Positions 5,753-31,709 of a stretch of DNA of 40,920 bases are shown here, in pieces (position 1 is the stretch's first letter; every line of letters starts with the position of its first letter). The translations under genes and the position numbers were made by a program. The stretch spans positions 1 through 40,920 of the forward strand of contig MHHS01000051.1 of assembly GCA_001817115.1 (NCBI GenBank), given 5' to 3'. This DNA is from Candidatus Andersenbacteria bacterium RIFCSPHIGHO2_12_FULL_45_11b. GTDB taxonomy: Bacteria > Patescibacteriota > Andersenbacteria > UBA10190. The notes under the pieces were generated by a model. The model saw only the letters and a list, made by a program, of their open reading frames with translations, made no database searches and was not told where the DNA came from.

Positions 5753-6511
5753 TTATATTCCAGACTTTTTATAAAGTTCTGAAATATTCGTAAATTCCTT
5801 TTTCTGCTCGATTTCTTCTGTAACGATGTCCCCATTTCGATTATATACTTTATATGCTTTCGCATGAGGTTTTGAAGTAATGACGCGATATGTATTGCCC
5901 ACAAATTCGATAGCGCACCCATCATCAACCCCTATACCAAATCCGCCTATTTTTCGAATCATGTCTTCAAAGTTTTTTCTTCGTTTCACTCCGAGCGTTT
6001 CACTGTCAAAGTGTGGGCAATGGATACCTTTTAAAAACCCCAAGCCAGTAACATTTGTATATATCCATTTTTCATCATCATAAAAAGACATTGAATCGCT
6101 ATGCCCAGATTCATACCAGCATATAGACCCCGCGCTTAAACCGCTTAAAATAATTCCTCGTTCCCATGCTTTTTTCAAAACCTTGTCCACTCCAAGTAAT
6201 CGCCAACGCTTCATCATCTTGAGCGTATTACCTCCGCCCACATATATAATGTCAGTATTAAGAATTTTGCTTTCTATCTCTGCCCTAGATAGCTTCCCGT
6301 TAGCAAGCAATAAAACGTCTGTCTTACAACCAAGCTGTTTGCCAAAATATTTTTGTATACCTTCCCAATATCCTTGCGCATCACCACTCGCAGTGGGAAT
6401 AAACAACAATTTCGGATGCTTTTTGCCAGAAAGTCGAATAATCTCCTTATCAATGACAAGAGTTTCTTTTTCGTCAATTTCCCCTCCGCCGATTGTTACT
6501 ATTTTCTTCAT
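5753..6511 (-). CDS. Peptidase S51 family protein (PepE/cyanophycinase-like)
   Basis: 'IYVGGGNTLKMMKRW', 'GLSAGSICW' nucleophile elbow, 'FGIGVDDGCAIEF'; ATG at 6511 starts the MKKIVTIGGGEI sequence. Confidence 0.85.
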   Translation of the reverse strand: MKKIVTIGGGEIDEKETLVIDKEIIRLSGKKHPKLLFIPTASGDAQGYWEGIQKYFGKQLGCKTDVLLLANGKLSRAEIESKILNTDIIYVGGGNTLKMMKRWRLLGVDKVLKKAWERGIILSGLSAGSICWYESGHSDSMSFYDDEKWIYTNVTGLGFLKGIHCPHFDSETLGVKRRKNFEDMIRKIGGFGIGVDDGCAIEFVGNTYRVITSKPHAKAYKVYNRNGDIVTEEIEQKKEFTNISELYKKSGI

Positions 6512-6578
6512 GCGATAATCGTAATTGAGTTTTGTAGCTTCGTCGAATATGGGTAGAACTTCAAAAATAGCAAAAGAA

Positions 6579-7031
6579 TTACATTGAGAGCACATCCCCA
6601 TGCCTCTTTCCCGGCACCACTACAAGCTTTGCGTGCAGCTTTCGTGCAATGATCTCCGCAGTCTTCTTCATAGCGGGAATTTCAAACTCCCCAACGTAAA
6701 CCGTAACCGCACAAGTAACTGTGGGGATAGGCCCTATCTCCTTGTATCGCTTCTTTCCAATGAGCCGAAGAAAGCTTTTTCCAGCCAGTTGTACTGTTTC
6801 TGTAAAAATTGGCGAAGGAGAGTATAGGTGAAGCTCTTTCGGAGGGTTCTTTTCCGCCACTATCAAAGCTATCGCTGCGCCAATAGAGTGCCCGGTTACA
6901 ATATCTTTGCTTGTAAGGTGAACCTTGTCGCACCAGTCTTGTATCGTATTATGTTTCCACGTCAAATTAACCGAAATGACTCTCTTCGGTAATTTATATT
7001 CTTTCGTATCTAATGCAATGAATAGTTTCAT
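6579..7031 (-). CDS. Alpha/beta hydrolase-like protein
   Basis: 'VTGHSIGAAIAL' nucleophile elbow; 'VPGKRHGDVLSM' near the C-terminus. Confidence 0.65.
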   Translation of the reverse strand: MKLFIALDTKEYKLPKRVISVNLTWKHNTIQDWCDKVHLTSKDIVTGHSIGAAIALIVAEKNPPKELHLYSPSPIFTETVQLAGKSFLRLIGKKRYKEIGPIPTVTCAVTVYVGEFEIPAMKKTAEIIARKLHAKLVVVPGKRHGDVLSM

Positions 7032-7837: not shown

Positions 7838-8953
7838 ATGAAAAAGGAAATTATGTCGCCAGAACGTTTGGCAGCCTCGTTGGCAATTCTAGACCTGACG
7901 GATCCCAAAAATGGGATTCACGCTATCAACATTGTCGCCAGTAATGTAGTTCGTGCATTGGAGAAAACTTATCGGGGAGTGATTGTTGAAGAGGTGCGTT
8001 CTGTCCCTGAAGTCTCCGTAAAAGAGAACTTCGACGATCTTCTCTTCCCCACAGACAACGCTGGACGATCTTCTCGTTACACGAGGTATGTTACGGAGGA
8101 CACAGTTTTGCGAACTCATACCTCAGCGGTAATTCCGAGATGGCTTGAAAAAGTATCTCGGGATAATGCTAGCGATCGGATTGTTGTCCTGCCGGGAATG
8201 TGTTATCGCCGTGATGTTGTGGATAAAACTCATTGTGGCGAGCCACACCAGATGGACGTTTGGCGAATCAAACGCGGTAATCCCCATTTTGCCAGGACAG
8301 ACATGCTTCACTTGATAGAAACTATCTTGGGATCGGTGGTTCCAGGATATAAATACCAAGCAAATGAAGTCGTACATCCTTACACTATGAACGGTCTTGA
8401 AGTGTACGTCTCGGTAAAAGGGTCATGGCTTGAGGTTCTTGAATGCGGTGAAGTTCATCCGACAGTTCTCAAGAATGCGAATCTTGATCCTAACGAATAC
8501 TCAGGGCTTGCTCTGGGAATGGGTCTTGATCGGCTAGTGATGATCACTAAAGATATTGACGATATTCGTGTTTTGAGATCAGAAGATCCTCGAATAAGGC
8601 GCCAAATGGCAGATCTTAAAAAGTTCGTCCCTGTCTCAAACCAACCGGCAACCAAAAGGGTCCTCTCATATTCGACTTCCGTCGAAAAAACGGAGGAAGA
8701 CATTTGCGAGGAAATTCGCGACGAGCTAGGTCCAGATACTATCTTCATAGAGAGAATCGAGTACTCCGAAATTTTCTATGAACAGCTTCCGGAAAAGGCC
8801 AGATCAAACCTCGGCATTAGCCCAGACCAGAAAAATGTTGTGGCAACACTGACATTCCGATCATTAGAAGGCTCAATGCCAAAAACGATGGTCAATGAGT
8901 GGATGCAGCGTCTCTACCCGAGACTAAATAAGGGAAATCGGGGATACATGTAG
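7838..8953 (+). CDS. Single-chain phenylalanyl-tRNA synthetase-like protein (class II core plus FDX-ACB domain)
   Basis: Motif 2 'YRRDVVDKTHCGEPHQMDVWRI', motif 3 'GLALGMGLDRLVMITKDIDDIRVL', C-terminal FDX-ACB-like 'VVATLTFRSLEGSM'. Confidence 0.8.
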   Translation: MKKEIMSPERLAASLAILDLTDPKNGIHAINIVASNVVRALEKTYRGVIVEEVRSVPEVSVKENFDDLLFPTDNAGRSSRYTRYVTEDTVLRTHTSAVIPRWLEKVSRDNASDRIVVLPGMCYRRDVVDKTHCGEPHQMDVWRIKRGNPHFARTDMLHLIETILGSVVPGYKYQANEVVHPYTMNGLEVYVSVKGSWLEVLECGEVHPTVLKNANLDPNEYSGLALGMGLDRLVMITKDIDDIRVLRSEDPRIRRQMADLKKFVPVSNQPATKRVLSYSTSVEKTEEDICEEIRDELGPDTIFIERIEYSEIFYEQLPEKARSNLGISPDQKNVVATLTFRSLEGSMPKTMVNEWMQRLYPRLNKGNRGYM

Positions 8954-9064: not shown

Positions 9065-10513
9065 TTAAAAAACCGGGAACAACTCGACATCTCTCGTATC
9101 CTGTGTGTTTAACAGAAGCATTAAAAGATGCTCCATTCCTACTGCGATACCTCTGCACGGAGGCAGTCCAAACTTTAATGCATTAATGATATCCTCATTT
9201 ACGCCGTTTGACTGACCTACTCTGCGATATTCCATCTGCTCTTCCATCCTCCGTCTAAGAATCTCGGGATCACGCTCTGGATTAACAATTGTAACAGTAG
9301 GTCTACCATTGATAATCAAGAGAGTCTCATCAACAGTTGATCCACCTTCATTGATCTTGTAAAGCGGTGATTGAGCAGCCGGTAGATTTCTTAGAAAAGC
9401 AGGCCCAGTAATATGAGACATCACGTGCGTATACAAGGCTGTTGCTATTGTATACTTATTCTCCCTTATGGGACGAACAATTTCTGCTTTATCTAAAATG
9501 TGCAAAAGCTCTTGGACAGGACATGCTTCGTCATATCTTAAACCCGTACACTTTTCGATCTCTGCCATAAAATCATAAACCATCCAGTTTCCTGAACAAT
9601 CTATCTCTCCCTTTGGAGTAAGAATTGACGTTGAACCGCTTAACTGCATCAGCACGTCGCAAATCATGTCATGCGCCAAATCCTCCATTTCATCACTCGT
9701 CGCATATGCATGATACAATTCAAGAATAGTAAATTGTGGAAGTTTGCTAGCTGTGGAATCCTGGTTCCGAAATGATTTACCGATCTCAAATACCTTTGAG
9801 AACCCGGCAATCATCAACTTCCATAGGAATAGCTCGGACGTTAACCTCAGATATATGTCCCGATTACGTCCAGCTGCCCGTGTCACGAACGGATCAGCTA
9901 AACCTGCCTCAAAAGACTCTTGAAGCAAGGTCATATTTAATTCCTCATACCCTTTCTTGTAGAGAAATTGCCTGATCGCACGAAACACTGTCGAACATTT
10001 TCGGAAATGCGAGATTTTTTTCTGGTCCCGAATCAGCTGGAGATGTCTATGAGCATACAAGTTTGATCTCTTTCGAAAATCAATATTGCTATCGTATACA
10101 TCACTCGTCGCCTTTGACAGCAACGTGATCTTTTCTCCAAGAAAAACATCTTCGCTTGCGATCCTAAGCCTTATACCATCCAACATTACTATATCTCCAT
10201 ACTGCACAAGGGAATTTATCGTTTCAATGTTATCCAGCGTACGTATTAAAAACGCAGGAATAGATACCCCATTTCCCTCTATTTTTTCAAGGATAATGAC
10301 GTTTCTTCCTTCCATGGTGTCAAAGACACCAAGTCTAGATATTTTCCCAGTATTGTCAGAAAGCATAAGCCTTCCAACAAGAGTGGTCTTTTCTTCATAG
10401 GGCACGTTTTTCAAGGCGCAGACCTCGATAGCCCCCCTTGGCACCTCACGACGATTGGTAAGAGGATCGTTTTCGAGAGCAAAAACTCTCTTTCCTCCAT
10501 TTTTTTTCTGCAT
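9065..10513 (-). CDS. Lysyl-tRNA synthetase class II paralog with altered catalytic motifs
   Basis: OB-fold-like N-terminus; 'ADPFVTRAAGRNRDIYLRLTSELFLWKL', motif 2 'VFEIGKSFRNQDSTASKLPQFTILELY', motif 3 'RGIAVGMEHLLMLLLNTQDTRDVELFP'. Confidence 0.85.
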   Translation of the reverse strand: MQKKNGGKRVFALENDPLTNRREVPRGAIEVCALKNVPYEEKTTLVGRLMLSDNTGKISRLGVFDTMEGRNVIILEKIEGNGVSIPAFLIRTLDNIETINSLVQYGDIVMLDGIRLRIASEDVFLGEKITLLSKATSDVYDSNIDFRKRSNLYAHRHLQLIRDQKKISHFRKCSTVFRAIRQFLYKKGYEELNMTLLQESFEAGLADPFVTRAAGRNRDIYLRLTSELFLWKLMIAGFSKVFEIGKSFRNQDSTASKLPQFTILELYHAYATSDEMEDLAHDMICDVLMQLSGSTSILTPKGEIDCSGNWMVYDFMAEIEKCTGLRYDEACPVQELLHILDKAEIVRPIRENKYTIATALYTHVMSHITGPAFLRNLPAAQSPLYKINEGGSTVDETLLIINGRPTVTIVNPERDPEILRRRMEEQMEYRRVGQSNGVNEDIINALKFGLPPCRGIAVGMEHLLMLLLNTQDTRDVELFPVF

Positions 10514-10597: not shown

Positions 10598-11554
10598 TTA
10601 TTTTATATGGGTTGTCAAATCAGCCGCAATGACAACATTTGAATTATTGGCTTCAATAGTAAGTTGCCCGCCAATAGGAAAAATCATATTTTCAACCGCA
10701 TGACCAAGTTCCCCTACCTCAATAACCGGAAAATTATATTTTTTCCCATATTCTAAAATGATATCGCTCACATTACGGTTATTCTCAAGAATTTCTTCCT
10801 TGCACATAAAAAAGTGACCGATAATAATTCCATTACAATATTTCTTAAAATTTGGTTGTTGAAATATTTGTGCAATATATGATTCAATGCGGGAAAAAGA
10901 CTCGCCAATAGATTCAATTATGAAGATAAACGGTTTAGAAACTGCGCGGATAGGATCACTGTCAGTGCCTAATAAGAGACAAAAGGAAGGTAAACAACCA
11001 CCCAGGCACACTCCAGTAGCTTTACCTGGCTTAATGACCTTCCACTGTAGATAATCAGGGTGATGCCGATAATTAATATAATTAGTAAAAAGAAAATCTT
11101 TTAAATGATTAACAGTGTATTCAGTTGCATTTTTACCAAGTCCCCAAATAACATCAATACCGTGATATGAAGTTTCACCCGTGTGAGCATATATAGCATT
11201 CAGCAATACGGTGATATCACTAACTCCAAATAATTTTTTAGGGTTTTGTTTAATAATGTTCCAATCTATGTCAGACAATAATTCATTTGAATTATCTCCA
11301 CCCTGTGTACAAAAAATTGCTTTAACCTTTGAATCTTTATATGCTTCTTCAATATCTGATATTCTTTCCGCAGCCGTGCCAGATTTATAGTACTCTTTTC
11401 CGCTGGCGTATTGACCATACTGCACCTTCAAGCCCATGTCATTAAGAATATCTACACCTCGGTTATAAAGTGCCATTGCTTCAGGATTATCCTTAATGGT
11501 AGCAGATGGTGAAATCACTGCTATAGTATCGCCTCTTTTCAATGTTTGATTCAT
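10598..11554 (-). CDS. S66 family peptidase, MccF / LD-carboxypeptidase-like
   Basis: 'TQGGDNSNELLSDIDWNIIKQNPKKLFGVSDITVLLNAIYAHTGETSYHG' carries the S66 nucleophile context and MccF-like 'GGxNSNxLL'. Confidence 0.87.
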   Translation of the reverse strand: MNQTLKRGDTIAVISPSATIKDNPEAMALYNRGVDILNDMGLKVQYGQYASGKEYYKSGTAAERISDIEEAYKDSKVKAIFCTQGGDNSNELLSDIDWNIIKQNPKKLFGVSDITVLLNAIYAHTGETSYHGIDVIWGLGKNATEYTVNHLKDFLFTNYINYRHHPDYLQWKVIKPGKATGVCLGGCLPSFCLLLGTDSDPIRAVSKPFIFIIESIGESFSRIESYIAQIFQQPNFKKYCNGIIIGHFFMCKEEILENNRNVSDIILEYGKKYNFPVIEVGELGHAVENMIFPIGGQLTIEANNSNVVIAADLTTHIK

Positions 11555-13227
11555 AGTCTTTTTATTAAGTAATTATTCAGAACTAAATAATCAATGTTAG
11601 ATTTTATAAATATTTTTATCGCATCTTTAGGCGTTTCAACCATTGGTTCTCCTTTGATATTAAAAGACGTGTTAATTAATATTGGGGTCTCTGATATTTT
11701 AGCAAATTCCTTTAAAAGAACATATAGCCGTGAATTTTGATTCTTAGATAAAACCTGCAACCTCGATGTATTATCGACATGAACGGCTGCCGGTATTTTT
11801 TTTGTTATTCTTTTATTTAATGGAGTGTAAGCAAAAAGCATATAAGGTAACGAGTCGGCAACCACTTTCGGAGGACAATAAAAATAGTCACTTAGGTCAT
11901 CAATGGTCATCATGGGAGCAACTGGACGAAAAGATTCTCGGCTTTTTATTTTATTCAAACGAACACGAGTGCTCATTTTTAACGGACTAGCAAGGATACT
12001 ACGATGTCCAAGTGCTCTTGGGCCAAACTCTGACGCTCCTTGAAACCAAGCTACCACATTATCATCAGCTAATAACTTAGCAATTTTGGGGGGGATCTTG
12101 TTATATCTAAGTTTTTCAAAATTAATATATTTTCGGTATTTATTAATAGCTTGTGTAAGAACTTTATCATTATATTTATATCCAAGATACACAGGCGGCA
12201 CACCCGATGAAATCTTTTTTTGGTTTCCATTGATTTGGTAATGTCCATAAAGAGCCGCTCCGATTGATACTCCGTTATCTCCAGGTGCACTAGGTATGTA
12301 AACACGCTTAAAACCAGACTTCTCTAAGATTTTAGTGTTGGCAATAGCATTTAAAGCCACTCCACCTGCGTAACATAAGTTTCTATGGCCTGTGACTTCT
12401 TTTATTCTTCGGGCATAAAATAGAACGACATTATTTATTATCTTTTGTACAGAAGAAGCGACGTCTGCAATATTTTTCTGTCCTGTGTCCCTATTAACTG
12501 TTTTTGCGATACAACGATAAAGACCGATGTTATCAATTTGATAGTATGTATCTTTTTTAACGCAATACTTTGAGAATTTTTTTACATACCGAGGTTTTCC
12601 ATAAGATGCAATCCCCATTAATTTACCTTCTCCGAAAGGTCCAAAACCACACAAAGAAGCAGTATTTTGATACAAGACACCCACAGAATTACTAAGAGCA
12701 ATAATCGTATTAGTGGAATGATTTATTTGACCAGTAACTTTTTCTAATAAATGTAGACTACCTCCGTGGGCAGAATATAGTGATACTGTCTCGAAACTGT
12801 CATCAAAATAATCACCCGCCCCATCTATCACAAGCACCGCCGCTTCAGTATAGGGTGATGTGTAGAAAGCATGAGCAGCATGTGCTAGATGATGATTTAT
12901 ATTTATATAATTATCCACAGGGACATTGGTCCCAGTTAGGTTTGATCCAACTATCATGCTTACTTGTTCCTCAATATGTTTATTGCCCTGTTTAAAATAT
13001 TTATAAAATCTATTGATTTTCTTTCGGAGAGAATCGATGGAGGGGTTAAGAAAATTAGAATCAAAGTATTTTGCTTCAGATTTTAAATTATATTGGCTAT
13101 TATCGTACTTTATACAGTGGCGAACATGGCTCAACCTCTCCTCTTCTATGGCGATAGAAACCTTACCATTTTCAACGATTGCAGCCGAACTATCATGAGG
13201 AGATAAACTTAATCCTAGAATAGTCAT
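11551..13227 (-). CDS. Carbamoyltransferase, NodU/CmcH/TobZ family
   Basis: 'MTILGLSLSPHDSSAAIVENGKV', 'INHHLAHAAHAF', 'GASEFGPRALGHRSILASP', 'LINTSFNIKGEPMVETPKDA'. Confidence 0.93.
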   Translation of the reverse strand: MTILGLSLSPHDSSAAIVENGKVSIAIEEERLSHVRHCIKYDNSQYNLKSEAKYFDSNFLNPSIDSLRKKINRFYKYFKQGNKHIEEQVSMIVGSNLTGTNVPVDNYININHHLAHAAHAFYTSPYTEAAVLVIDGAGDYFDDSFETVSLYSAHGGSLHLLEKVTGQINHSTNTIIALSNSVGVLYQNTASLCGFGPFGEGKLMGIASYGKPRYVKKFSKYCVKKDTYYQIDNIGLYRCIAKTVNRDTGQKNIADVASSVQKIINNVVLFYARRIKEVTGHRNLCYAGGVALNAIANTKILEKSGFKRVYIPSAPGDNGVSIGAALYGHYQINGNQKKISSGVPPVYLGYKYNDKVLTQAINKYRKYINFEKLRYNKIPPKIAKLLADDNVVAWFQGASEFGPRALGHRSILASPLKMSTRVRLNKIKSRESFRPVAPMMTIDDLSDYFYCPPKVVADSLPYMLFAYTPLNKRITKKIPAAVHVDNTSRLQVLSKNQNSRLYVLLKEFAKISETPILINTSFNIKGEPMVETPKDAIKIFIKSNIDYLVLNNYLIKRL

Positions 13228-13237
13228 AATAAAAAAA

Positions 13238-14101
13238 TCATTGATAAATATCAGGTCTCCTGTTTTTTATAATATTGAGGGCATTTAGATTTAATACTCT
13301 CTCTTCAATAAGAGAAGCTACTAAATCAACCTCTATGGTTAATTCTCCCAGTTTATCATCAATTTGCCCGAGTATTTTACCACTGGGTGCAATAATTTTA
13401 CTAGAACCGAGAAACTCCAAGGATTTGTTCTGGTTGACCCCGACTTGATTAGAAACAACCACTAAACACTGATTTTCCACAGCTCTAACTTGATCATAAA
13501 TATCAAAAATATTTTTACTCTGATCATTTATTTTCTGATCGTTATTTTGGTGAACATCAGTATATGCCCAGGCAGATATTATTATAATAATCTCGGCCCC
13601 TTTAAGGGCTAGAGTTTTGGCTGCCTCTGAAAAACATTTATCATAACAAATTAAAACACCAATTTTCCCCACGGGTGTCTGGAAAACCTCTAAAGAATTT
13701 CCGGGAAACAAAAAATAAGGCTCATTAGTTGCTAAATGAGTTTTTCTATAAACGTAATGAGTTTTATCTGGCAAAATAATGTAAGCACTATCAAACATTT
13801 GGCCGTAACCTAAGCTGTCGTCTCTCTCAATAGCTCCCAGAACGATAACCTGGTTATTTTTAGCCGCTATTGCTTTGATCTCCTGTAGAAATCGAATAGA
13901 TGTCGTATTAGTTAAATTAATGGCTGATTCAAGATAATATTTGATAGATTCTTGCTCTAAAAAAGGCATGTATCCCTGCACACAGGCTTCTGGAAATACT
14001 ACTAAATCGCTTTTGGCGTGCTTTAGTAGTATTTTCTTTATTGATCCGATATTATCTTCGGAGTTTAAAGTGGCTTTAAAATTGACAGTGGTAATTTTCA
14101 T
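13238..14101 (-). CDS. Carbon-nitrogen hydrolase (nitrilase superfamily)
   Basis: Glu-Lys-Cys triad contexts 'VVFPEACVQGY', 'YRKTHL', 'GVLICYDKCFSE'. Confidence 0.9.
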   Translation of the reverse strand: MKITTVNFKATLNSEDNIGSIKKILLKHAKSDLVVFPEACVQGYMPFLEQESIKYYLESAINLTNTTSIRFLQEIKAIAAKNNQVIVLGAIERDDSLGYGQMFDSAYIILPDKTHYVYRKTHLATNEPYFLFPGNSLEVFQTPVGKIGVLICYDKCFSEAAKTLALKGAEIIIIISAWAYTDVHQNNDQKINDQSKNIFDIYDQVRAVENQCLVVVSNQVGVNQNKSLEFLGSSKIIAPSGKILGQIDDKLGELTIEVDLVASLIEERVLNLNALNIIKNRRPDIYQ

Positions 14102-14104
14102 ATA

Positions 14105-14911
14105 TTATTGGTCAAACAAAGAGATTTGCTCCTTGATCGGTCTTTTGCGACTAATAATAACCCCATAAGAAAGATACTTATGATTCTTATTAAATAAGGT
14201 CATAGTCTTGTTAAGTCTCCTATAGATGGCTGACTCTATTTCCGAAGAATATTTTTTTTCTTGTGCTATCGTTCGACAATATAACTTAACATCATTTTTA
14301 CTAACAAGCTTGACTTTATCCGTGAAAGTATAATACTTCTCTAAACCACAGATCTTATATAAATTCATCCAGTACTCTAAGCCCCATGGTTCAATACTAA
14401 TCTCCAAGAGATTATTTAGATTATTCAACAGAGATACTGGCGGTTTTTTATGATAAAAGAAATTAATATCAATAACAAACCCCCAGGGTTTTACCACTCT
14501 GGCGTATTCGCTTATGGCCTTTTTCTTATTTTTAATAAATGCTGTTGAGCCACCAGAAAAAGCGACATCAAAGGACTCATCCTTAAAGGGTATCTCCATA
14601 CCATCGGCCACCAAAAAATTCACAAGATGGCCTAATGGATCTTTTGACTGATAAAGCTTTGCGGCCTCAACCATATTTGGGCTGATATCTATGCCCGTGA
14701 CATCTGCCTTCGCAAGATGGGCGATTTCAAAAGTACAATAACCAGTATTACAGCCTATGTCCAAAACTTTTGATTTGTGATTTATAAAACTGTTTTGTAT
14801 AGATTGTCTGACTGAAATTTGACCACCAGGGGGCCGATTTACCTCATTCAAAAGGGCCATAAACTCAACATATGGCATATTCTCAATTTGTTGTGCGCTA
14901 AGTTTATGCAT
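14105..14911 (-). CDS. Class I SAM-dependent methyltransferase
   Basis: 'KVLDIGCNTGYCTFEIAHLAKADVTGIDISPNMVEAA' motif I and 'ADGMEIPFKDESFDVAFSGG'. Confidence 0.88.
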   Translation of the reverse strand: MHKLSAQQIENMPYVEFMALLNEVNRPPGGQISVRQSIQNSFINHKSKVLDIGCNTGYCTFEIAHLAKADVTGIDISPNMVEAAKLYQSKDPLGHLVNFLVADGMEIPFKDESFDVAFSGGSTAFIKNKKKAISEYARVVKPWGFVIDINFFYHKKPPVSLLNNLNNLLEISIEPWGLEYWMNLYKICGLEKYYTFTDKVKLVSKNDVKLYCRTIAQEKKYSSEIESAIYRRLNKTMTLFNKNHKYLSYGVIISRKRPIKEQISLFDQ

Positions 14912-14926
14912 AATAATATATAAGAA

Positions 14927-15298
14927 CTATCTAAAAATTTCCTTTTTATCTACTGATAAAGGTATAAAATATTCACAAATTTCAGAAAACAGTTTTCTGC
15001 AAGTTTCCTCATTATTTTGTGAATAATTACACAAAAAAACATCTAACGTTATATATTGCAATTCCGGCCAGGTATGTACTGAAATATGTGATTCCATCAA
15101 ACAAACGACACCAGTGAACCCCTCCGTCTTTCCAAATTTATGGTAATAAGATCCTAGTTCTCGGAGTTTATGTTTCTTAATGAGACTACTTAAAAAAAGT
15201 TTAAATGCCTTTTTTGACCCAGCTTTGATAAGAGACCCTGTTTGGATTTGGCCTAAAATGTGTAGACCGGTAATAACTTTTTTATTCTTGTTACTCAT
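14927..15298 (-). CDS. speD: S-adenosylmethionine decarboxylase family protein (class 1b SpeD-like)
   Basis: 'CLMESHISVHTWPELQYITLDVFLCN' contains the self-cleavage Ser, catalytic His and Cys contexts. Confidence 0.9.
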   Translation of the reverse strand: MSNKNKKVITGLHILGQIQTGSLIKAGSKKAFKLFLSSLIKKHKLRELGSYYHKFGKTEGFTGVVCLMESHISVHTWPELQYITLDVFLCNYSQNNEETCRKLFSEICEYFIPLSVDKKEIFR

Positions 15299-15322
15299 TG
15301 CAGTTATTTTAATTTTATCTTA

Positions 15323-16375
15323 CTATGGATATGTTCTAATATTTTTTAACCGCGGATATAAGATTGCGTCACGTATATTATTTTGGCCAAGGATCCAAGT
15401 AATAAACCTCTCTATTCCTAAACCAAAACCAGACGTACCGCTATAATTTGCAAGGTCTCTAAGATGTATATACCACTCATAAGAATCGGTGGAAATATTT
15501 TGACGAAACAGCGACTCAAGTATTTCTTTTTTATTATCTTGTCTTTGACCACACCCAATAATTTCGCCACCAAAGGCTCCCTCAAATAAAGGAGGAAATA
15601 TTAGATCGGCATTAAGCACCTTTTCAGAATCCTTTGGATCTGGCTTTTGATAAAAAGGAACCCTATCACGGTCATAACCGTATATCCAAAAAGGAGTTTT
15701 ATATCTGAGCAACTGACTTAAAATAATCTCACTATTTGATTTTAGATCACGACCATGTTTAGTGTAATTTACAAGTCGCCCGAATCCATTTTCCTCCAAT
15801 AGTCCAACAGCTTCATCAAAAGTTATGCGAGGAAATTTTTGCGCCTTTAACACAGCCTCAATTGAGGTTCTAGTCGCTTTATCGTCTAAAGCTAATTTTT
15901 CAACAATATCAGGCAAATCTTTTATTGTTTTTACTAAAATTTTAATGTACTTCTCAACTAAAGGAATCAGATCATCAATTTGACCTCTTATTTCAGCTTC
16001 ACAATGGTAAAACTGATTAAGATGTTTCTCATCTGGATTCTCCCCGCGCATTGATGGTAAATAACAATAGACTTTATCGAAGCCATTCATTAGTACTGGT
16101 TCAAGACCAAATTGTGCTGAATCTACAAGAAAAGTTTTAAGATCGCCAAATTTAATCGATATAGCTTCAGAATCTGAGCTAGGTCCCATAGGAGAAGAAA
16201 TGCTAGGCGTGATCATAAATAAGTCAACATTATAGGCCCCCTGTGTTTCTGACCAATATTTATCAGTTGCAATTTTAATATAATGCCTCAATTTGGTTAA
16301 TTCTCTAAAATATTGAGAATCTGCGACTCTTAAATAATGTGTTCTTGGATTATACTTTGGAATATTAAGTTTCAT
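15323..16375 (-). CDS. Asparaginyl-tRNA synthetase-like class II ligase lacking the N-terminal anticodon-binding domain (archaeal AsnA-like)
   Basis: Motif 2 'SMRGENPDEKHLNQFYHCEAEI'; 'GGEIIGCGQRQDN...YEWYIHLRDLANYSGTSGFGLGIERFITWILGQNNIRDAILYPR'; no OB-fold in the first ~50 aa. Confidence 0.87.
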   Translation of the reverse strand: MKLNIPKYNPRTHYLRVADSQYFRELTKLRHYIKIATDKYWSETQGAYNVDLFMITPSISSPMGPSSDSEAISIKFGDLKTFLVDSAQFGLEPVLMNGFDKVYCYLPSMRGENPDEKHLNQFYHCEAEIRGQIDDLIPLVEKYIKILVKTIKDLPDIVEKLALDDKATRTSIEAVLKAQKFPRITFDEAVGLLEENGFGRLVNYTKHGRDLKSNSEIILSQLLRYKTPFWIYGYDRDRVPFYQKPDPKDSEKVLNADLIFPPLFEGAFGGEIIGCGQRQDNKKEILESLFRQNISTDSYEWYIHLRDLANYSGTSGFGLGIERFITWILGQNNIRDAILYPRLKNIRTYP

Positions 16376-16500
16376 AGCAGTTATAAAGTATTTTATTTAA
16401 AGTATACTAACTAAATGATGATTTGTACTGGGAAAGGTTAATTTAATTATACTTTTGATAACAAACGCATTATACAAATCTTTACATAATAAGTCAATCT

Positions 16501-17013
16501 CCACGGGCTTACGCCCGTGGCATGTATGTTAGAACGCAAGCATAGCTTGTCCTGAATCCTCTTTGCCCTGCATCTTGATATACCTTCGTATGATGTCTTC
16601 ATTCACCCCTACGGTAGAGACAAAGTACCCATCTGACCAGAAGCCTCCACCCCAGTATATCTGTTTGATGAAGGGGCATTTTTCGCGTATGGCGCGGCTG
16701 GTATTTGTTTTAATGATGCGTACGGCAGTTCCTGGTGCCATTTTTGGGGGAATGGAAATGAGGAGGTGGAGGTGATCTACGTCATGGTTAATCTCCTTAA
16801 ACTCGATTTCGGAGTAGTGCTTCCTAATCTCTTGCAACTTCAGCGCCATAAACGCAAAAATTCCTTCGTTAATGACCTTACGGCGGTACTTGGGTGTCAG
16901 GACTACGTGGTATTCACACAAATACACTGCGTGGGCTTGTTTCCGGTATCTCATGTCTCCATGATACTAGAGGATTCAGGAATCCACTCCTTCCCTCGGG
17001 CTTACGCCCGGGG
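16501..17013 (-). mobile_element. IS200/IS605-family insertion sequence with flanking hairpins, no tnpB
   Basis: ccacgggc-ttac-gcccgtgg (16501-16520) and cctcgggc-ttac-gcccgggg (16994-17013) bracket an intact TnpA; true ends probably lie slightly outside. Confidence 0.85.
16529..16954 (-). CDS. tnpA: IS200/IS605 family transposase TnpA (HUH Y1)
   Basis: 'EYHVVLTPKYRRKV', HUH 'DVDHLHLLISIPP', C-terminal 'DIIRRYIKMQ' with candidate catalytic Tyr. Confidence 0.93.
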   Translation of the reverse strand: MRYRKQAHAVYLCEYHVVLTPKYRRKVINEGIFAFMALKLQEIRKHYSEIEFKEINHDVDHLHLLISIPPKMAPGTAVRIIKTNTSRAIREKCPFIKQIYWGGGFWSDGYFVSTVGVNEDIIRRYIKMQGKEDSGQAMLAF

Positions 17014-17064
17014 CATGAAATTAGGTGGAGTCAAATTCTTACATGTCTAATTTGTCATATTTTC

Positions 17065-19633: not shown

Positions 19634-20002
19634 TTACCTATCCAACACGGTCATTTTTGTGGTTTTTGCGCCAAAGTATTTTTGACAAAATTCTAAGGCA
19701 ACATTGGCGTCAAAATCTTTGCAGCTGAATATATCGATATATGCACGATTTGCTACTTCATCTAAATGCACCGTAATCGAAGACGTTTCAATGAACTGAA
19801 TAGCGGAATATCCCTCAAGATTTCCTGCTCCGAAGCGGTCGATATGGCATGGGCCATGAGCCTGCATATTTACGACCTCAATAACCTCTTTCACGAAGTT
19901 TTCTAGTAATTCCTTATTATTGACACGATCATGCTCGCAATCGTGCAAATCGATTGCTGCTGATTTCCCCCATTGATCCTGAAACGATAGCGGATGGCTC
20001 AT
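19634..20002 (-). CDS. Divergent SpeD/AdoMetDC-family protein
   Basis: 'ETSSITVHLDEVANRAYIDIFSCKDFD' corresponds to 'ESHxxxHTWPExxxxxxDxFxC'; ESH is replaced by SSI. Confidence 0.75.
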   Translation of the reverse strand: MSHPLSFQDQWGKSAAIDLHDCEHDRVNNKELLENFVKEVIEVVNMQAHGPCHIDRFGAGNLEGYSAIQFIETSSITVHLDEVANRAYIDIFSCKDFDANVALEFCQKYFGAKTTKMTVLDR

Positions 20003-20147
20003 ATGGATATTATCCTTATACCTTACACTATCCAAATGGAAAAGTCAACTTTTTTCGACACTCCTGCCATTTATTGACACAACCCCCTACCCATGGTTCC
20101 CTTTGTCGAGAGGGATCGTTCTTTTCACCACTATAAGAGGAAGCGCC

Positions 20148-21092
20148 ATGCAGTTTGCTCACCGGCACATTGTGTCTGTTGACCAATTCACCAAGGGAGA
20201 AATTGAGCATCTATTCCAATTTGCGCATCGAATGCGCCCTATCGAACAACACGTTGTGCGATGCCAAGTATTAGACGGCTACATCCTCGGAAGCTTCTTC
20301 TTCGAAGCAAGCACGCGAACTCGCATGAGTTTCGAAACTGCCTTTATGCGCCTCGGCGGATTAGTGAACACCACGACCGGGTTTACCTTCTCCTCTATGG
20401 CAAAGGGAGAATCGCTTGCAGATACCATTCGCGTTGCTCAAGGCTATTGCGACATTATCGTAATGCGCCACCCAGATGTCGGCTCTGCTGAACTTGCGTC
20501 AAGATATTCGACAAAGCCGATCATTAACGGCGGAGACGGGCCGGGAGAACACCCCACGCAAGCACTTCTCGACTTGTTCACTATTAAGGAAGAGAAGCAG
20601 CGAGTAGACGGCTTAACTATTGCGATGATCGGCGACTTGAAACATGGACGAACCATACATTCGCTTGCCAAATTACTGACACTATACAGCGACATCAAGA
20701 TTCAATTGATCGCGCCCGAGGAAGTGCAAATGCCTCCGGAGCTCGTTGAGTATCTTCGGTCGAAAGGATGTGAAGTTACACAATCAGATCGTTTGGAGGA
20801 TTGCTTGCCTTCCGCAGATGTGCTGTATGTGACTCGAATTCAAAAGGAACGCTTCGATGACGTAGAATCGTATAGCCGAGTTAATGGCACCTATTCGATT
20901 AATCGCGCATTGATCGAAAGGGGTTGCAAGAGCGATGTGACGATCATGCATCCGCTTCCCCGCTTAGGAGAACTGGCAACCGACGTGGATAACCTTCCAG
21001 GAGCTGCTTATTTTCGGCAAGCAGAAAATGGGACGCTTGTTCGCATGGCCCTCTTTATTCTCGTTCTCCGGAAAGAGAATAAGTTCGTGTAG
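20148..21092 (+). CDS. pyrB: Aspartate carbamoyltransferase catalytic subunit
   Basis: 'FFEASTRTRMSFETAF', 'GDGPGEHPTQALLDL', 'MIGDLKHGRTIHSL', 'MHPLPRLGEL'. Confidence 0.95.
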   Translation: MQFAHRHIVSVDQFTKGEIEHLFQFAHRMRPIEQHVVRCQVLDGYILGSFFFEASTRTRMSFETAFMRLGGLVNTTTGFTFSSMAKGESLADTIRVAQGYCDIIVMRHPDVGSAELASRYSTKPIINGGDGPGEHPTQALLDLFTIKEEKQRVDGLTIAMIGDLKHGRTIHSLAKLLTLYSDIKIQLIAPEEVQMPPELVEYLRSKGCEVTQSDRLEDCLPSADVLYVTRIQKERFDDVESYSRVNGTYSINRALIERGCKSDVTIMHPLPRLGELATDVDNLPGAAYFRQAENGTLVRMALFILVLRKENKFV

Positions 21093-24127: not shown

Positions 24128-25885
24128 ATGCAAGCCGTAACCTCCGTATTTAAAGCATTTACACCAAGTATTAGGAAGCATTGGGTTCTTTTCGGCGCGT
24201 CGATACTGCTCATGATTGGCGCCGTTCTTTTCGGCGCAGCCTTCCCTTTTTACACAAGAATGCTTGTAAATGAGTTCGCAAAGAATACCCATGACGCATC
24301 GCGGGCATGGCTGATTTTTCAAACTCTTATCTGGATGTATGTCGGAGTCAATATTTGCTATCGGCTGTTTGACATCACTATAACTCTATTCCAGGCAAAA
24401 GTAGCGCGAGACCTCACAAAGCGCAGTTTTGCCGTACTGCAAACTCAATCGATGCATTTTTTTGAGAACTCTTTTACAGGATCCATTATAACGAGCGCGA
24501 AACGATTCAGTAATGCTTTTGATGGCATGGCTGATGTGTTTTTCTATCAGCTCCTCAAAAGCAGCATCCTGTTTATTGTTATATTTGTTGTGACCGTTAG
24601 AGAAAGGCCGTTACTGGCTGTGCTCGTAGCGGGCTGGATGCTCGTATATTGCGGGCTGATTTTGTTTGCAATACGCTTTCAACTCCCATTCTTCAATGCC
24701 AGCGCGAGCGTTGATTCTGAAGTTGGCGCCGTTCTCGCCGATTCAATAAGCAACCACATGACCGTGAAGTCATTCGGCCGAGAAGCAACTGAAGCAAAGC
24801 GCTTTCTTGCAGTTATTCAAAAAAGCTACATCATGCGCCTTAAAGCATGGTTTGCCAGCAATGCGGTCTTTGCAATACAAGGCATTCTCATGGCTATAGC
24901 AGAGCTTGGGCTAACCTGGTACCTCATAACAGGGTGGCACAAAGGAGAAGTAACAATTGGCGATTTTGTATTTTTCCAGGCCTACATACTTTGGATGATT
25001 GAACAAATTTGGAACCTTGGTCCAATGATGCATCGCTTCTTTGAACATGTATCTGATGCGAAAGAAATGGCTGACATCTATCACATAACGCCTGATGTAC
25101 AAGATACTCATGGAGCTAGCACTTTAAAAGTTACAAGTGGCAAGATTGAATTTCATAAAGTTACTTTTAGCTATAAAAATAGCAAACGCGGAACATATCA
25201 AACTATCAATAATTTAACGCTTACAATCCCGGCCGGGCAATCCATAGGCCTTGTCGGTCGAAGCGGGGCAGGCAAAAGCACAATCGTGAAGTTATTACTA
25301 CGATTTTACGATTTGCATAATGGGCGAATTCTTATTGATGGCCAAGACATCACAAAAGTTACTCAAGAAAGCTTGCGCCAACAGATTGCGGTAGTCCCTC
25401 AAGATCCGCAAATGTTTCACTCTACAATACGACACAATATTGCGTTTGCACGACCGGATACAACTGAAGCAGAAATTATTGAAGCGGCAAAGAAGGCGTA
25501 TGCATGGGACTTTATTCAAGAGCTCCCCTATGGCCTCGATGCTATCGTAGGAGAACGCGGCGTAAAGCTTTCCGGAGGACAGCGCCAGCGCATTGCAATT
25601 GCGCGCGCAATTTTAGCAGATCCTCACATTCTCATATTGGACGAGGCGACGAGCGCACTTGATAGTGCGACGGAAAAAATCATCCAACAAGCAATCGCGA
25701 ACTTGCTGCAAAGCCGCACTTCGATCGTGATCGCGCATCGCTTAAGCACCATCATGCGATTAGATCGCATTGTAGTTATTCAGAATGGTAGAATTATTGA
25801 AGATGGAACCCACCAAGAACTTCTTGGTCACAAAGGAGAATACGCCGACCTTTGGGCGCACCAAAGCGGAGGATATTTAAAATAA
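24128..25885 (+). CDS. ABC transporter, fused permease/ATP-binding protein (MsbA/MdlB-like)
   Basis: Walker A 'GRSGAGKST', signature 'LSGGQRQRIAIARAIL', Walker B 'ILILDEATSALD'; N-terminal TM domain. Confidence 0.95.
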   Translation: MQAVTSVFKAFTPSIRKHWVLFGASILLMIGAVLFGAAFPFYTRMLVNEFAKNTHDASRAWLIFQTLIWMYVGVNICYRLFDITITLFQAKVARDLTKRSFAVLQTQSMHFFENSFTGSIITSAKRFSNAFDGMADVFFYQLLKSSILFIVIFVVTVRERPLLAVLVAGWMLVYCGLILFAIRFQLPFFNASASVDSEVGAVLADSISNHMTVKSFGREATEAKRFLAVIQKSYIMRLKAWFASNAVFAIQGILMAIAELGLTWYLITGWHKGEVTIGDFVFFQAYILWMIEQIWNLGPMMHRFFEHVSDAKEMADIYHITPDVQDTHGASTLKVTSGKIEFHKVTFSYKNSKRGTYQTINNLTLTIPAGQSIGLVGRSGAGKSTIVKLLLRFYDLHNGRILIDGQDITKVTQESLRQQIAVVPQDPQMFHSTIRHNIAFARPDTTEAEIIEAAKKAYAWDFIQELPYGLDAIVGERGVKLSGGQRQRIAIARAILADPHILILDEATSALDSATEKIIQQAIANLLQSRTSIVIAHRLSTIMRLDRIVVIQNGRIIEDGTHQELLGHKGEYADLWAHQSGGYLK

Positions 25886-29963: not shown

Positions 29964-31709
29964 TTATACATATCCGCGGACTTGATGAGCCCAGAGATTT
30001 GCATACATGCCTTCCGCACTCAACAGGTCTTCATGCGCTCCATCTTCGGCAATCTTTCCGTTTTCCATAACGACTATGCGATCCAAACTCATAATCGTGC
30101 TCAACCGGTGCGCAATTACAACCGAAGTACGCCCTCGCAATAGATTGGCAATTGCTTTTTGGATGTACTTTTCAGTTTCGCTATCCAGCGCACTGGTTGC
30201 TTCGTCCAAAAGAAGAATCTTCGGATCTGCAAGTATCGCACGGGCAATAGCAATCCGCTGGCATTGACCTCCAGAAAGCTTCATTCCGCGTTCTCCTACC
30301 ATAGTATCCAGACCATCAGGAAGTTTTTCTATGAACTCCCATGCATACGCTTGCTTGGCTGCCTCGACTACGTCCTCCTCGCTTGCATTCGGACACGCAA
30401 ATGCAATGTTTTCCCGAATCGTACGATGGAAGAGTTGCGGCTGCTGCGGAACAACCGCCATTTGCTGACGCAAACTTTTTTGCGTCACATCGGTGATATC
30501 CTGCATATCGATCCGGATATATCCGGAATCCAGCTCATACAGTCGCATAAGGAGCTTTACGAGCGTACTTTTGCCAGCGCCGGTTCTTCCTACCAAGCCA
30601 ACAGATTGGCCGGGAGGAATCTTCATATCGATTCCGTTAATAGCAAAGCTCTTCTCTGAATATACTGTCCCGTAGTGAAAAGTAAGAGCATGAATGTCTA
30701 TCTGCCCTTCCGAAATCACTAACGGGTGAGCCTTTGGCGCATCTCGCACCTCTGACTCCAGATCAAAGACTTCTGTCATTTCCCTTGCTTCCGCAACGAG
30801 AATAAAAAGTTTTCGAACCGAGTGAACGAACGTCCATAAATGACCCAATATCCAAGCCATATATGTCTGGAAGAAAACCAGATCTCCTGTCGTAATCGTT
30901 CCTTTCGCCCAGCCGCCTATCATCCACCATACGAGGCCGACTTCTGCGACCATCATCATAATCATTTGCATCGCCATGCCTGCGTTTCCTACCATCCACG
31001 CCTTCAAGCGTTTCTGATAGTTTTCAACCACAACAGTATCGAATCGTTTCTGTTCAGATGGCTCGCAGCCGAACGACTTGACCGTGAGATGACTCCCGAT
31101 AGAATCCGCGCATGCACCTCCTACCTTGCTGTCTGCTTCCGCCGATGCTTTTTCGAGTGGATATCTATACTTAATCAGGATGGCGCCAACCGCGAGGAAA
31201 GCGACGACCCACGCACCAAATGCAAACGCGAAGCTTGGCATAGTGCTGAAAAATGCAACAAAGGCAAAGCATAGAATAAGGATACTTCGCCCCACTTCTA
31301 CAAACAGCACATCGATTATTCCTTCGAAAGAATTTCGAAACCGGCCGGCACTTTTTACGAGCGCCCCCGTAAAAGCATTTTCGAAGAAACTAATGGATTG
31401 CCGTTGGATAGCCGCGAAACTGCGCTGATCTAAATCGCGCATAATTCGCGCCTCATACAACGAAAGCGCCACATCGAAGATTCGATATGCCAAGAACGTA
31501 CCAACGCCGAGCATGAGATACTGCCAAAATATCTCCTTGGCCAAGGACACATTTTTCTCTTCCGCCGTAAACACATTTACAATGTTCCTCAACAGAAAGG
31601 GGCGAAGTGATGCAAACGCAATTGCTCCCGAAATAGAGATGCACAATATCACAAACAATAAGTGATACTTGCGCATACTGGGCCAATAGGCACGAAATAC
31701 CGCTAACAT
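29964..31709 (-). CDS. ABC transporter, fused permease/ATP-binding protein (paralog of 24128-25885)
   Basis: Walker A 'GRTGAGKST', signature 'LSGGQCQRIAIARAIL', Walker B 'ILLLDEATSALD'. Confidence 0.95.
   Translation of the reverse strand: MLAVFRAYWPSMRKYHLLFVILCISISGAIAFASLRPFLLRNIVNVFTAEEKNVSLAKEIFWQYLMLGVGTFLAYRIFDVALSLYEARIMRDLDQRSFAAIQRQSISFFENAFTGALVKSAGRFRNSFEGIIDVLFVEVGRSILILCFAFVAFFSTMPSFAFAFGAWVVAFLAVGAILIKYRYPLEKASAEADSKVGGACADSIGSHLTVKSFGCEPSEQKRFDTVVVENYQKRLKAWMVGNAGMAMQMIMMMVAEVGLVWWMIGGWAKGTITTGDLVFFQTYMAWILGHLWTFVHSVRKLFILVAEAREMTEVFDLESEVRDAPKAHPLVISEGQIDIHALTFHYGTVYSEKSFAINGIDMKIPPGQSVGLVGRTGAGKSTLVKLLMRLYELDSGYIRIDMQDITDVTQKSLRQQMAVVPQQPQLFHRTIRENIAFACPNASEEDVVEAAKQAYAWEFIEKLPDGLDTMVGERGMKLSGGQCQRIAIARAILADPKILLLDEATSALDSETEKYIQKAIANLLRGRTSVVIAHRLSTIMSLDRIVVMENGKIAEDGAHEDLLSAEGMYANLWAHQVRGYV

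Follow-up and report, generated by a model that had tools for sequence, protein, structure and literature searches.

A six-gene operon in an Andersenbacteria contig

The window analysed here is a 40,920-nucleotide stretch of DNA that makes up an entire contig (MHHS01000051.1; C51) of the 884-kb, 94% complete genome of Candidatus Andersenbacteria bacterium RIFCSPHIGHO2_12_FULL_45_11b, a tiny member of the Patescibacteria that is probably host-dependent. Six minus-strand open reading frames (ORFs) at 10598-16375 encode, in order of transcription, a ligase resembling AgnA of agrocin 84, the S-adenosylmethionine (SAM) decarboxylase SpeD1, an MccD-like SAM enzyme, a nitrilase, a carbamoyltransferase and an S66 peptidase (Table 1). 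Their coordinates were confirmed, and all six are full-length family members with significant Pfam matches (tRNA-synt_2, AdoMet_dc, Methyltransf_11, CN_hydrolase, Carbam_trans_N/C and Peptidase_S66/S66C, respectively). The intergenic gaps are 24, 15, 3, 10 and -4 bp, and the genes share a low GC content (0.32-0.36, with a GC3 of 0.24-0.36), compared with 0.40-0.49 for the window genes measured outside the operon. A sigma-70-like promoter precedes the ligase gene and is the top-scoring of 40 promoter-like sites in the region, a total that compares with 30.0 +/- 5.8 in shuffles. All of this agrees with a first-pass annotation of the window, which had read the six packed genes as probably one operon; the six genes form a real operon.

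Upstream, the operon is bordered by a complete IS200/IS605 insertion sequence (IS), whose tnpA matches NF033573 above the cut-off. Matching hairpins, CCACGGGC and CCTCGGGC, are present at both IS ends (16501 and 16994), and two such hairpins were obtained in 0 of 100 shuffles. Scanning the window for Rfam families and tRNAs gave no matches.

Table 1. Features of the operon and its immediate surroundings, with window coordinates
Feature	Coordinates	Strand	Remarks
Degenerate LysRS-like gene	9065-10513	-	84 bp downstream of operon; not counted as core
S66 serine peptidase, MccF clade by sequence, 318 aa	10598-11554	-	Peptidase_S66/S66C
NodU/TobZ-type carbamoyltransferase, 558 aa	11551-13227	-	Carbam_trans_C 3e-61, Carbam_trans_N 5.6e-37
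Nitrilase-superfamily C-N hydrolase, 287 aa	13238-14101	-	CN_hydrolase 3.3e-39
MccD-like SAM-dependent transferase, 268 aa	14105-14911	-	Methyltransf_11; MccD best PDB match
SpeD1, pyruvoyl S-adenosylmethionine decarboxylase, 123 aa	14927-15298	-	AdoMet_dc 4.5e-20
AgnA-like ligase, 350 aa	15323-16375	-	AsnRS catalytic core without OB/anticodon domain; Pfam tRNA-synt_2
Sigma-70-like promoter TTGACT-17-TATAAT	16469-16497	-	Upstream of ligase gene; 11/12 consensus matches
IS200/IS605 element	16501-17017	.	Complete, borders operon upstream; tnpA 16529-16954

The ligase belongs to a clade distinct from AsnRS

The ligase scores below all NCBIfam cut-offs for AsnRS and asparagine synthetase A (AsnA); its alignment with the AsnRS core starts at about residue 36 to 71. 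It is approximately 33% identical to AgnA (described in PMC4392301), which is encoded on the agrocin 84 plasmid pAgK84, and 44-59% identical to nine patescibacterial or archaeal homologues and to one from Bradyrhizobium (57%); the hosts of this closer group are Falkowbacteria, Gracilibacteria, Paceibacterota, Parcubacteria, Taylorbacteria, other Patescibacteria, a Woesearchaeota archaeon and Bradyrhizobium. Homologues at 33-36% identity occur in Peribacillus, Exiguobacterium, Pantoea, Xenorhabdus and Streptomyces as well as on pAgK84, where the homologue is AgnA itself. Residues R110 and E112 of motif 2, R323 of motif 3, and R278 are invariant across 16 family members. In a tree, the ligase family is split from canonical AsnRS with support of 100/100 (one canonical row is a long branch), and AgnA sits in a different subclade from the window ligase. 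The first-pass annotation had named a phylogeny placing the genes with housekeeping orthologues as evidence against a biosynthetic cluster; for the ligase, the tree gave the opposite result.

The best fold match of the predicted ligase structure (mean predicted local distance difference test score 83, dropping to low confidence near residues 54-76 and 110-121) is Pyrococcus horikoshii AsnRS with bound Asn-AMP. As we read the alignment, the ligase, like AsnRS, has Leu where AspRS binds the Asp carboxylate, and for this reason asparagine is probably the likeliest substrate.

Close homologues of the ligase were absent from the 59 relatives first sampled and from 12 class-mates; among 379 other genomes of the phylum, just 2 had one. 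Horizontal acquisition of the operon is likely and constitutes the simplest reading. The Bradyrhizobium ligase, which is encoded on symbiotic plasmids (L031 and L032), nests among patescibacterial sequences in the tree, a placement that we read as inter-phylum transfer. On those plasmids it clusters with an S66 gene, a HAD gene and a class I SAM enzyme gene. A Bradyrhizobium nodU gene within about 3 kb of the ligase was set aside as coincidence, being on the other strand of a symbiotic plasmid and, in pUSDA76, past an IS element. Searches of viral contigs with the ligase and MccD-like alignments yielded no relatives; matches to the ligase in phage records were fragments or came from Listeria, Staphylococcus and Enterococcus phages at 26-33% identity, and were read as ordinary AsnRS-like sequences.

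An MccD-like enzyme is paired with SpeD1

The first-pass annotation had called the third gene product a methyltransferase. It is indeed a class I SAM enzyme, but PDB and plasmid searches place it with MccD of microcin C instead. In the PDB, MccD (5FCD) is matched with an E-value of 8.9e-29 and the next chain with 6.6e-14, which argues that the homology is specific to MccD rather than to methyltransferases in general. When 72,556 plasmids were searched with this gene, the top ten places went to records that carry an AgnA-like ligase, from Exiguobacterium, Peribacillus, Xenorhabdus, the agrocin plasmids and Streptomyces NBC_01707. After these came a group of Escherichia coli and Salmonella plasmids whose match is the MccD of microcin C. 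Gene order was read in one of these, from ATCC 25922, and it has the microcin C order of ThiF adenylyltransferase, MFS transporter, MccD gene, GNAT acetyltransferase and S66. By homology, the MccD-like family is one of aminopropyl or 3-amino-3-carboxypropyl transferases. In microcin C, MccD works together with MccE to attach an aminopropyl group to the phosphate, for which decarboxylated SAM is still a possible donor (PMC10491745).

Directly upstream of the MccD-like gene is the gene for SpeD1. The catalytic residues of SpeD are Ser63, His68 and Cys83, and a Pro marks true S-adenosylmethionine decarboxylases (AdoMetDC) (PMC10407285). SpeD1 keeps the block ESHISVHTWPE...DVFLC, with Ser, His and Cys plus the Pro of WPE, which we take as the diagnostic one. 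It thus shows the diagnostic residues of AdoMetDC and not those of SpeDC, which disfavours ornithine or arginine decarboxylase activity. SpeD was found in just one other ligase locus (L024), where it carries the same residue block and again lies directly upstream of an MccD-like gene. The MccD-like protein of L024 is 49% identical to that of the window, and the two group at 100/99. SpeD is therefore paired solely with MccD-like enzymes, as an immediate neighbour in both loci. This two-locus association fits a scheme in which SpeD1 would feed decarboxylated SAM to the MccD-like enzyme, and the SpeD-linked aminopropyl chemistry suggested earlier looks plausible.

A second SpeD is encoded elsewhere in the window (19637-20035, minus strand), divergently from a gene resembling ornithine/aspartate carbamoyltransferases (20103-21092, plus strand). 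Its corresponding block reads SSITVHLDE, the AdoMetDC-type Pro being lost, and it is possibly a pyruvoyl amino-acid decarboxylase.

The S66 peptidase and the remaining operon genes

The S66 peptidase is the only one detected in the genome. Its best matches by sequence are MccF-like chains (117-126 bits versus 50-75 for LdcA); in a Foldseek search with the predicted structure, MccF-like proteins also came first by E-value, with similar TM-scores to LdcA. Ser112 and His285 are kept in the alignment with MccF.

The nitrilase has an intact Glu/Lys/Cys motif, as read from the sequence, and matches TIGR03381 (N-carbamoylputrescine amidase) below the cut-off. The carbamoyltransferase finds carbamoyltransferase 7xb6, GdmN and TobZ in the PDB. 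Neither gene is an operon member in any of 19 other ligase loci, and the nearest plasmid relatives of both are general family members; they are probably tailoring genes.

The trio of ligase, SAM enzyme and S66 is found in unrelated genomes

Among the 19 other ligase loci, annotation shows an S66 gene near the ligase in 13; in 16, a class I SAM enzyme is encoded nearby. All three occur together in Patescibacteria, an archaeon, Bradyrhizobium, Bacillota, Xenorhabdus, Agrobacterium and Streptomyces. By contrast, 0 of 20 control loci of the canonical AsnRS family had an S66 or SAM enzyme gene, in flanks of only about 1.5 kb that were not fully matched. The association is unlikely to be due to chance; binomial figures for it used an assumed background rate of 3% or 10% and are given no further weight. 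The ligase and S66 genes are between 1 bp and 7.3 kb apart, the two widest spacings (6-7.3 kb) being those of agrocin 84 and Streptomyces. The SAM enzymes belong to three unrelated subtypes (MccD-like, MTb and MTc), and AlaRS-like or ProRS-like ligases, HAD hydrolases and kinases also recur. In one locus (L025:11841-13919), AlaRS-like and S66 domains are fused in a 692-residue ORF beside the AgnA-like ligase.

These data bear on the co-conservation that the first-pass annotation had named as a check of its proposed cluster. Three of the families (ligase, SAM enzyme and S66) are conserved together in unrelated genomes, which supports a biosynthetic operon with an aminoacyl-tRNA-synthetase-like ligase. 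All six are not: the nitrilase and carbamoyltransferase were operon members in no other ligase locus, and SpeD was present in just one.

Relation to agrocin 84, microcin C and other systems

The locus resembles agrocin-84-type operons in having the ligase, an MccD-like SAM enzyme and an MccF-like S66 in one operon. On pAgK84, the AsnRS-core ligase AgnA is adjacent to an MccD-like enzyme (Arad_15003) and accompanied by the MccF-like AgnC5. SpeD, nitrilase and carbamoyltransferase were not seen in the pAgK84 stretch read, whereas agrocin 84 has a LeuRS immunity gene and other acyl and sugar genes that the window operon lacks. Common to the operon and microcin C are an MccD-like transferase and an MccF-clade S66. 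The operon has neither MccB (ThiF-like) nor MccE, however, and its SpeD stands in for the decarboxylase domain of MccE. A ThiF-like gene is absent among the window ORFs scanned with Pfam, and no MccA-type precursor gene was identified, short ORFs (MccA has 7 residues) not having been specifically searched; for these two reasons the operon is not filed as microcin C. A Streptomyces NBC_01707 plasmid locus, which we read as what may be a phosmidosine-type cluster, likewise has an AgnA-like ligase, an MccD-like enzyme and an S66 close together, but differs in its molybdopterin hydroxylase, tRNA-ligase-like and condensation-domain genes. With spermidine biosynthesis (SpeD-SpeE), the operon has in common a SpeD with AdoMetDC diagnostics; here, however, the partner of SpeD is an MccD-like enzyme, and a spermidine synthase was not detected in the genome.

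The gene combination, unrecognised in the first-pass annotation, thus has a known core in two "Trojan horse" antibiotics, agrocin 84 and, for MccD and MccF, microcin C. What is unusual is the patescibacterial host and the SpeD-MccD pairing. In the open-access literature, which was the scope of our search, we found no account of such patescibacterial clusters or of the ligase mechanism.

A proposed nucleotide product and its alternatives

On the evidence of homology, the product of the operon is probably an antibiotic akin to agrocin 84 and microcin C, namely an aminoacyl nucleotide that would contain a P-N bond and be built without a ribosomal peptide. That the product is a phosphoramidate or aminoacyl-nucleotide we consider quite probable. 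From the operon, its homologies and the recurrent association of ligase, SAM enzyme and S66, we infer each of the following reactions. MccB adenylates the C-terminal Asn of its peptide, forms a succinimide and makes the N-P bond with a second ATP (PMC12250964); in a similar way, the AgnA-like ligase would adenylate a free amino acid, probably asparagine, and generate an acyl-phosphoramidate nucleotide. SpeD1, whose family membership is clear, would supply decarboxylated SAM, from which the MccD-like enzyme would transfer an aminopropyl group to the phosphoramidate phosphate. This step is suggested by the MccD homology, the adjacency of SpeD and the undetected spermidine synthase, and we give decarboxylated SAM an even chance of being the donor. 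The nitrilase and NodU-type carbamoyltransferase might tailor the acyl or nucleoside part. Finally, the S66 enzyme would cleave the acyl-nitrogen bond, either for self-protection or in acyl exchange and maturation.

Several observations weigh against this scheme. The loop that bears the nucleobase-stacking Trp of MccF, W186 in E. coli MccF judging from the titles of PDB entries, is deleted in the window S66, and its Glu is shifted one position. The first-pass annotation had described the catalytic motifs as intact and the peptidase as a self-protection enzyme: the motifs of SpeD and the nitrilase are indeed intact and the S66 is nearest to MccF-like chains, but since the nucleobase loop is absent, MccF-type self-immunity is uncertain and stands as a lead. 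The operon itself contains neither an exporter nor a resistant synthetase. Agrocin 84, the one known product of the family, has no described aminopropyl group, so the MccD-like enzymes encoded beside AgnA may do something other than aminopropyl transfer. The SpeD-MccD pairing comes from two loci, and the search for a spermidine synthase covered a 94% complete genome. Lastly, the specificity for asparagine is a deduction, and the entire chemistry is a prediction.

In one alternative, the product is still an agrocin- or phosmidosine-type nucleotide, but the MccD-like enzyme methylates or has some other role and SpeD acts elsewhere, for example in providing a polyamine as acyl acceptor. In its favour, Agrobacterium, Xenorhabdus, Exiguobacterium, Peribacillus and Streptomyces have AgnA-linked MccD-like enzymes with neither SpeD nor MccE alongside, and other ligase loci have the unrelated MTb and MTc enzymes. 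We nevertheless consider it unlikely, given that SpeD is both times the immediate neighbour of an MccD-like gene and nowhere paired with another SAM enzyme, and that spermidine synthase went undetected. The proposal of the first-pass annotation, a carbamoylated amino-acid amide or polyamine conjugate without a nucleotide, would account for finding SpeD together with a NodU-type carbamoyltransferase and a relative of N-carbamoylputrescine amidase. However, the genes that recur are those of the nucleotide antibiotics agrocin 84 and microcin C, while the nitrilase and carbamoyltransferase do not recur; homology thus favours an N-acyl phosphoramidate nucleotide over a simple amide, which we regard as rather improbable.

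It is very improbable that the ligase is a housekeeping AsnRS or AsnA in a chance neighbourhood. AsnRS and AsnA are its best named NCBIfam matches and no canonical AsnRS was found in the 94% complete genome, but all those matches are below cut-offs, the OB domain is absent, the ligase is lacking in the 12 class-mates and it falls in a clade separate from AsnRS. Moreover, GatB is present in the genome, pointing to an indirect route to Asn-tRNA for which the ligase is not needed, and the association with S66 and SAM enzymes is repeated.

Returning to the aminoacyl-nucleotide scheme, we tentatively suggest, with some doubt, that the AsnRS-derived ligase clade is a widespread non-ribosomal counterpart of MccB that makes the P-N bond on a free amino acid, and that some Patescibacteria aminopropylate the phosphoramidate via an MccD-like enzyme supplied with decarboxylated SAM by a dedicated SpeD. 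If so, transferable operons of streamlined Patescibacteria encode nucleotide "Trojan horse" antibiotics that target aminoacyl-tRNA synthetases. For agrocin-84-type compounds, whose P-N bond is of unexplained origin, the AsnRS-core ligases would provide a testable enzyme family, and the operon would offer a natural test case for the use of decarboxylated SAM by MccD-type enzymes.

Neighbouring genes

No resistant copy of an aminoacyl-tRNA synthetase was found, the sole candidate being the degenerate LysRS-like gene. Of the 86 invariant residues of canonical LysRS, 39 differ in its product, in which motif 2 is degraded and the motif-3 Arg is replaced by His; the canonical LysRS of the genome is on another contig (C32). 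With degraded ATP-binding motifs and a GC content (0.42) unlike that of the operon, it was rejected as an immunity synthetase, though it is possibly associated with the operon. It had no close homologue in the relatives searched. Two ABC exporter-like genes are present in the window (24128-25885, plus strand; 29964-31709, minus strand); neither adjoins the operon, so an exporter cannot be assigned to it. The PheS-related "mystery ligase" SrmL (7838-8953, plus strand) matches NF051887 with 401 bits (cut-off 300) and has no close homologue in 14 relatives. The window also encodes an S51 peptidase (5753-6601, minus strand); S51 enzymes can confer resistance to processed microcin C (PMC9239234).

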